DNA from: Thermoplasmata archaeon
GTDB lineage: Archaea; Thermoplasmatota; Thermoplasmata; Lutacidiplasmatales; UBA184
Direction of reading: 5' to 3'
DNA: 34,734 nt
Assembly (NCBI GenBank): GCA_021823345.1
Contig: JAKAOF010000015.1
Location: 1-34,734 of the forward strand
Position numbers and translations under genes: made by a program. The stretch's first letter is position 1. Every line of letters starts with the position of its first letter. The notes below the pieces were generated by a model. It was given only the letters and a program-made list of their open reading frames with translations. It did not search any database and was not told the origin of the DNA. Below, in pieces: positions 729-1,435 of this stretch.

Positions 729-807
729 CCCCCTCCGAGACGGTCCGGCACCATATATCCCCGCTGTCGGGGGAGGTGTAAAATATCCAGTGAACGATAC
801 GTACGGC
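729..807. promoter_or_regulatory. Divergent promoter region between the ATP-grasp and cysteine-rich genes
   Basis: This 79-bp gap holds two AT-rich boxes in an otherwise GC-rich context. CATATATC at 752-759 lies 24-30 nt from the minus-strand ATG at 728. AAAATATCC around 780-788 lies about 24 nt from the plus-strand ATG at 808. Both spacings fit archaeal TATA boxes with leaderless transcripts. A hairpin-prone CCCCGCTGTCGGGG lies between them at about 760-773 and could be an operator. Confidence 0.55.
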
Positions 808-948
808 ATGAGCAACCAAGCGATCGCGCCTCCAGGGAGGCTGTCGTGCGCATGCTGCAATTGTCCGCAAGGCTGCTGCCCTTGCTGTGCGTGCTGCTCG
901 ACCGGACAGGCTTGTTGCGCTTCGTGCCCACCCAGCACCCCGGCGTAA
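808..948 (+). CDS. 46-aa cysteine-rich mini-protein (metallothionein-like composition)
   Basis: The small frame runs from ATG 808 to TAA 948. The product is 46 residues with 13 cysteines, all between residues 14 and 40: CACCNC, GCCPCCACC and ACCASC. There are few hydrophobic residues and no signal peptide. Dense CC and CxC clusters without aromatics resemble metallothioneins that bind Zn, Cu or Cd in thiolate clusters, but I recognise no specific family, so this is an inference from composition. The start is supported by a TATA-like box about 24 nt upstream. It is divergent from an ATP-grasp gene. Alternatives are a scaffold for an Fe-S or mixed metal cluster, or a fortuitous open frame; the ordered Cys clusters argue against the last. 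Confidence 0.6.
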   Translation: MSNQAIAPPGRLSCACCNCPQGCCPCCACCSTGQACCASCPPSTPA

Positions 949-1206: not shown

Positions 1207-1219
1207 AACGGTGACAACC

Positions 1220-1435
1220 ATGGGAACGCGAGTGGGCAAGGAGCAGATCAAGCGCGAGAACGGCTATCTCTACTACCTCGGAAAGGACGGATTCATCTGG
1301 AAGTCCCCGATGAAGACGAACAAGAAGGGGAAGAAGGCGAAGGTCGGAACAGAGAAGATCTCCAGGGAGTCTGGCACGATGTACTACCTCGACAAGGCGG
1401 GGTACGTCTGCAAGGCTAAGATGAAAAACGCCTGA
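1220..1435 (+). CDS. 71-aa lysine-rich protein with two tandem YYLxKxGY repeats
   Basis: ATG at 1220 is chosen over an in-frame GTG at 1211 because it follows the TATA-like box with a short leader. The protein is basic and made of two similar units: RENGYLYYLGKDGFIWKSPM (about residues 12-31) and RESGTMYYLDKAGYVCKAKM (about 49-68). A Lys-rich linker KTNKKGKKAKVGTEKI joins them. Each unit looks like a short beta-hairpin repeat. There are no membrane segments. Similar small proteins occur, as far as I recall, as conserved hypotheticals in archaea and bacteria, but no function is established. The basic charge makes nucleic-acid binding plausible (inference). The gene is monocistronic and ends 16 bp before a strong hairpin. 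Confidence 0.75.
   Translation: MGTRVGKEQIKRENGYLYYLGKDGFIWKSPMKTNKKGKKAKVGTEKISRESGTMYYLDKAGYVCKAKMKNA

Follow-up and report, generated by a model that had tools for sequence, protein, structure and literature searches.

What function, if any, is served by an archaeal protein in which 13 of 46 residues (28%) are Cys? The question is raised by an open reading frame (ORF) at positions 808-948, plus strand, of a 34,734-nucleotide stretch of Thermoplasmata DNA, here called the window, which is the entire contig C6 of a 1.86-Mb genome. The ORF starts with ATG at 808, stops with a TAA that ends at 948, and translates as MSNQAIAPPGRLSCACCNCPQGCCPCCACCSTGQACCASCPPSTPA, confirming the length and Cys content given in an earlier note on this DNA. 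Its core reads C-A-CC-N-C-PQG-CC-P-CC-A-CC-STGQA-CC-AS-C. All other reading frames of the window contain at most six Cys per 32-residue stretch, and the maximum in 30 Markov surrogates of the window is seven. The ORF is an extreme Cys outlier within the window. A TATA-box-like element (GTGTAAAATATCC, positions 776-788, plus strand) precedes it and includes the all-A/T octamer TAAAATAT at 779-786, which begins 29 nucleotides 5' of the ATG. Only eight such octamers occur in the 34.7-kb window, whose GC content is 62.5%. This position is where an archaeal TATA box would be expected if the mRNA is leaderless, and the earlier note's wording, an archaeal promoter at leaderless distance, is apt.

Short ORFs may be chance reading frames without function, and spurious long frames are common in GC-rich DNA. 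Conservation speaks to this reading directly. An initial search recovered a homologue in a congener in which all 13 Cys can be aligned. It is flanked by an amine-oxidase-like gene and a metallo-beta-lactamase-fold gene, a neighborhood unlike that of the window. Of 103 sampled genomes belonging to the same archaeal family, 55 were matched in profile searches, and these represent five of its seven genera. Among the high-quality genomes, 18 of 36 have a match, with a degenerate copy in G003 set aside. Within this one family, whose members are uncultured, roughly half of the species carry the gene. The 54 intact sequences, which come from 53 genomes and comprise 49 aligned members and five read later (L128-L132), retain all 13 Cys in the spacing CxCCxC-x(1-3)-CCxCCxCC-x5-CCxxC. 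In the 49 aligned members, the 13 Cys are invariant, and the residue between the second and third doublets of the CCxCCxCC block is almost always Ala. A subgroup carries one conserved His (CCHCC). Both TGC and TGT are used at each of the 13 Cys positions (488:136 in total), and pS in the pooled core is 0.73 versus a pN of 0.165. The mixed Cys codons and the excess of pS over pN indicate that conservation acts on the protein rather than on the DNA. Judged by these substitution patterns, the peptide is under strong purifying selection at the protein level. The Cys spacing, whose lack in close relatives the earlier note had named as grounds to abandon its proposal, is clearly conserved. A chance frame is refuted by the 54 intact homologues, the strong purifying selection, and the differing genomic contexts, and its probability is negligible. 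The 808-948 ORF is a real member of a strongly conserved gene family.

Degenerate versions that have lost several Cys are present at L133:6007 (G003, a congener) and L054:6019 (G043), and G044 contains an extra degenerate copy. The G003 and G043 copies suggest that, in some species, the protein has recently lost its function or has changed its role. Two members, on contigs G010:C63 and G065:C7, are identical in sequence to their counterparts in DAHUZP010000032.1 and DAHUYN010000016.1, respectively. No relatives outside the family were found in the sampled genomes of the class (400) or the phylum (390). A search of contig records gave two records of the same lineage and one match in Treponema that was judged spurious.

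Searched at E<=10, Pfam and NCBIfam returned no family for any of the 49 aligned members. Sequence relatives are likewise absent from the PDB and from viral contigs, and from plasmids when the window protein is the query. AlphaFold2, given the 49-row alignment, modeled the metal-free chain with a mean pLDDT of 55.5 and no secondary structure, which is too poor for a fold search. The absent fold would be expected for a metal-free metallothionein, and equally for any disordered or poorly modeled peptide. Small zinc-ribbon proteins are numerous in archaea, and the peptide could instead be a structural zinc mini-protein (a zinc ribbon or adaptor) with one or two bound Zn ions and a nucleic-acid or protein contact partner, rather than a metal sink. 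The five loci of cluster 4, in which a gene for an OB-fold nucleic-acid-binding protein immediately precedes the peptide gene, would suit such a role; an OB-fold gene is also the upstream neighbor in some g7 genomes. However, the Cys are spaced as CC/CxC clusters rather than paired CxxC knuckles, a conserved hydrophobic core is absent, and no zinc-finger match in Pfam or NCBIfam is found for any of the 49 members. The lack of an AlphaFold fold and the variable neighborhoods also argue against a zinc mini-protein, which is unlikely.

The composition of the family instead resembles that of metallothioneins. Across the 49 members, Cys makes up 29% of the residues, while Phe (0.7%), Tyr (0.1%), Trp (0.1%), and His (0.9%) are nearly absent. 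By working definition, metallothioneins are small (<7-10 kDa) and Cys-rich, with CC/CxC clusters, scarce or absent aromatic residues and His, and conserved Cys under selection on the protein; the archaeal family, with its conserved CxCC and CCxCCxCC clusters, shares these attributes. The peptide is likely to act as a metallothionein does, as a small metal-thiolate protein that is probably located in the cytosol. In the proposed mechanism, transcription from its own promoter would yield a short leaderless mRNA, and the apo-chain would be unstructured. The 13 Cys, arranged in CxCC, CCxCCxCC, and CCxxC clusters, would wrap around Hg(II), Cu(I), Cd(II), and Zn(II), all soft metal ions, and thereby hold them away from cellular thiols. 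Work on Thermococcus gammatolerans (PMC3407056) and Haloferax mediterranei (PMC9240420) reported no metallothioneins, and the phrase "archaeal metallothionein" was not found in the searched literature. As far as could be checked, this is the first metallothionein-like family described from archaea.

The window itself offers a possible partner. An ATP-grasp gene, truncated by the contig end, occupies positions 3-728 of the minus strand and diverges from the Cys-rich gene. Its product matches the DcsG-type NCBIfam model (E=1.3e-43) and, weakly, GSH-S_ATP. The earlier note raised the possibility that this ligase serves the same thiol or metal response as the peptide. However, the gene recurs at no other fetched locus, so it provides no evidence for a thiol pathway, and the partnership was rejected. 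The same gene bears on a further alternative, in which the peptide is secreted and either disulfide-rich or modified (an antimicrobial or RiPP precursor) and the ATP-grasp enzyme acts as its maturase. This reading draws on the adjacency of the two genes in the window, and the lack of an ATP-grasp gene at every other fetched locus counts against it. In addition, the Cys count is odd, MSNQAIAPPGRLS has no hydrophobic signal segment, and no maturase or protease recurs among the top Pfam families of 149 neighboring genes, where ABC transporters occur only sporadically. A secreted or modified peptide is highly improbable. Downstream of the Cys-rich gene, a small ORF of 74 residues (1211-1435, plus strand) contains two imperfect repeats (YLYYLGKDGFIWKSPMK and TMYYLDKAGYVCKAKMK) of the form YYLxKxGxxxKxxMK and has no Pfam match. 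Neither this ORF nor the ATP-grasp gene is near any other family member among the fetched loci. About 0.8 kb from the Cys-rich gene, the minus strand carries a tyrosine recombinase remnant (1758-2234; PF00589, E=4.2e-7) with three in-frame stop codons.

Across the family, the peptide gene occurs in many different neighborhoods, and the contexts differ between genera, which argues that the peptide itself is the conserved unit. A GTP cyclohydrolase II gene (RibA) lies directly upstream in all four g3 genomes and in four of six g6 genomes; it was considered as a partner and is read as inherited synteny. In the four g3 genomes, msrB (SelR) is the next gene downstream. This arrangement would suit a peptide that serves generally as a thiol redox buffer or in oxidative stress, with metal binding secondary. 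However, the msrB adjacency is limited to one genus, and the fixed 13-Cys spacing suggests defined coordination rather than bulk thiol. A redox buffer is very unlikely. No metal-sensor or repressor genes stand out among the nearest neighbors. A heavy-metal ATPase is found within 5 kb at only three loci, two of them from sister species, and linkage to a copper ATPase was set aside because about one such locus is expected by chance according to our own estimate. The sister-species enzymes (L066:7255-9324 and L083:7270-9339) are heavy-metal P-type ATPases with an N-terminal YHS domain, encoded on the opposite strand about 1.2 kb downstream of the Cys-rich gene. Glyoxalase/VOC genes follow on the same strand, 71-87 nucleotides downstream, in L057, L063, and L073, and genes of this family make up five of the 149 neighbors by raw count. 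Loci outside the RibA, msrB, and OB-fold contexts have no neighbor in common.

The organomercurial lyase MerB (PF03243) is the second most frequent Pfam family among the nearest neighbors, and it is present in only 17 of the 103 family genomes. In five genomes, merB is directly adjacent to the peptide gene on the same strand, downstream in G023, G077, G086, and G093 and upstream in G070. These represent only five of the 54 intact loci. The probability of five adjacencies by chance is about 1.5e-12 under a crude uniform-placement binomial model that ignores phylogenetic relatedness. The peptide is present in 15 of 17 MerB-positive genomes versus 39 of 86 others (Fisher p=0.0012, a test that also ignores relatedness). 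The MerB neighbors score above the PF03243 cut-off and keep the equivalents of Cys96, Asp99, and Cys159 (and Cys117), with the motifs CCxxD, TRCPxCG, and VCC/ICC aligning with 1s6l. The four downstream MerBs belong to a short subfamily with 36-55% mutual identity. Because the pair is kept at this level of identity and with changing flanks, it survives large divergence. The family contains five short MerBs, and the peptide gene is immediately upstream of four of them. No Cys-rich ORF adjoins the fifth (G088, split over two contigs), nor does one adjoin the short MerBs from f25, outside the family. The four short MerBs reach 20-40 bits against an NCBIfam equivalog cut-off of 193-200 and fall short of the full length with an N-terminal domain. 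These proteins (L045:5554-5994, L051:1036-1437, L085:5501-5983, and L089:2460-2894) contain little beyond the MerB domain and an extra zinc-knuckle-like TRCPxCG, and they are possibly an unrecognized MerB subfamily.

Canonical MerA is found in 13 genomes of the family, none of which is MerB-positive, and it is never adjacent to the peptide gene; a MerA partnership was therefore rejected. No MerA scores above the curated cut-off in the 17 MerB-positive genomes. The FAD enzyme beside the peptide gene in L046 was considered as a MerA, and its best score is as a dihydrolipoyl dehydrogenase. The occurrence of MerB in the absence of MerA has been described as puzzling, since the Hg(II) has to leave MerB by some route (PMC8261052). 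It is plausible that the 13-Cys peptide is the Hg(II) acceptor or sink of MerB organisms that lack MerA. In lineages with an adjacent merB and no canonical MerA, the peptide would most likely take the Hg(II) released by MerB. Tentatively, MerB and the peptide may form a MerA-independent organomercury detoxification module, in which C-Hg cleavage is followed by transfer of Hg(II) to an archaeal metallothionein and by sequestration instead of reduction to Hg(0). If true, such a module would offer one solution to the question, raised in the literature, of how MerB functions where MerA is missing (PMC8261052), and the pairing gives a testable idea for unexplained MerB-without-MerA genomes. Most peptide-bearing genomes have no MerB, including that of the window, in which no MerA above the curated cut-off was found either. 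Thus, the general role of the peptide must be broader than mercury and is probably soft-metal sequestration. The merB linkage in five genomes joins the composition and the 13 Cys kept in 54 homologues in upholding the metallothionein-like part of the earlier interpretation, whose ATP-grasp part has fallen.

How the peptide compares with known systems depends on the system. Like the mer system, it is associated with MerB, through an adjacent gene in five genomes whose product keeps the equivalents of the catalytic Cys96, Asp99, and Cys159. Unlike the mer system, the MerB-positive genomes have no canonical MerA, four of the MerBs are short, and a Cys-rich peptide occupies the expected place of the Hg(II) acceptor. 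The bacterial metallothioneins BmtA, SmtA, and NmtA are small intracellular Cys-rich prokaryotic proteins, as the archaeal peptide probably is, and metal sequestration is the role proposed for the latter. A zinc-finger fold within a metal cluster is common to SmtA-type homologues (PMC7558416), whose expression is under the control of SmtB/ArsR repressors (PMC8790569). However, the archaeal family has no homology to the curated BmtA/SmtA models (0 of 49 members), contains many CC doublets and almost no His, and has no repressor gene that stands out beside it. MymT, the mycobacterial copper metallothionein, is a tiny, previously unannotated Cys-rich ORF of 4.9 kDa that binds Cu(I) (PMC7558416). 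Compared by description, MymT and the archaeal peptide are both tiny Cys-rich ORFs, although their lineages differ, and the archaeal family illustrates how easily annotation misses tiny genes. In Tetrahymena metallothionein subfamily 7a, most Cys are in CC clusters and CXCC motifs (PMC1808422), both of which are also found in the archaeal peptide. However, Tetrahymena MTT3/MTT5 are 162 residues long and built of C2X6 and CXCXXCXCCK modules with CCC clusters (PMC1808422), whereas the archaeal peptide is a single core of about 27 residues without C2X6 or CXCXXCXCCK modules. Metallothioneins are considered a functional, polyphyletic class, and the likeness to the ciliate proteins is naturally read as convergence (PMC9781358). 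The metallothionein-like composition, the absence of BmtA/SmtA homology and of Tetrahymena 7a modules, and the lack of metallothioneins in the archaeal studies together point to an independently derived metallothionein variant. The best reading is a new, independently evolved metallothionein-like family that sequesters thiophilic metals, and its clade-wide occurrence would mean that archaea evolved metal buffering of the metallothionein type independently.
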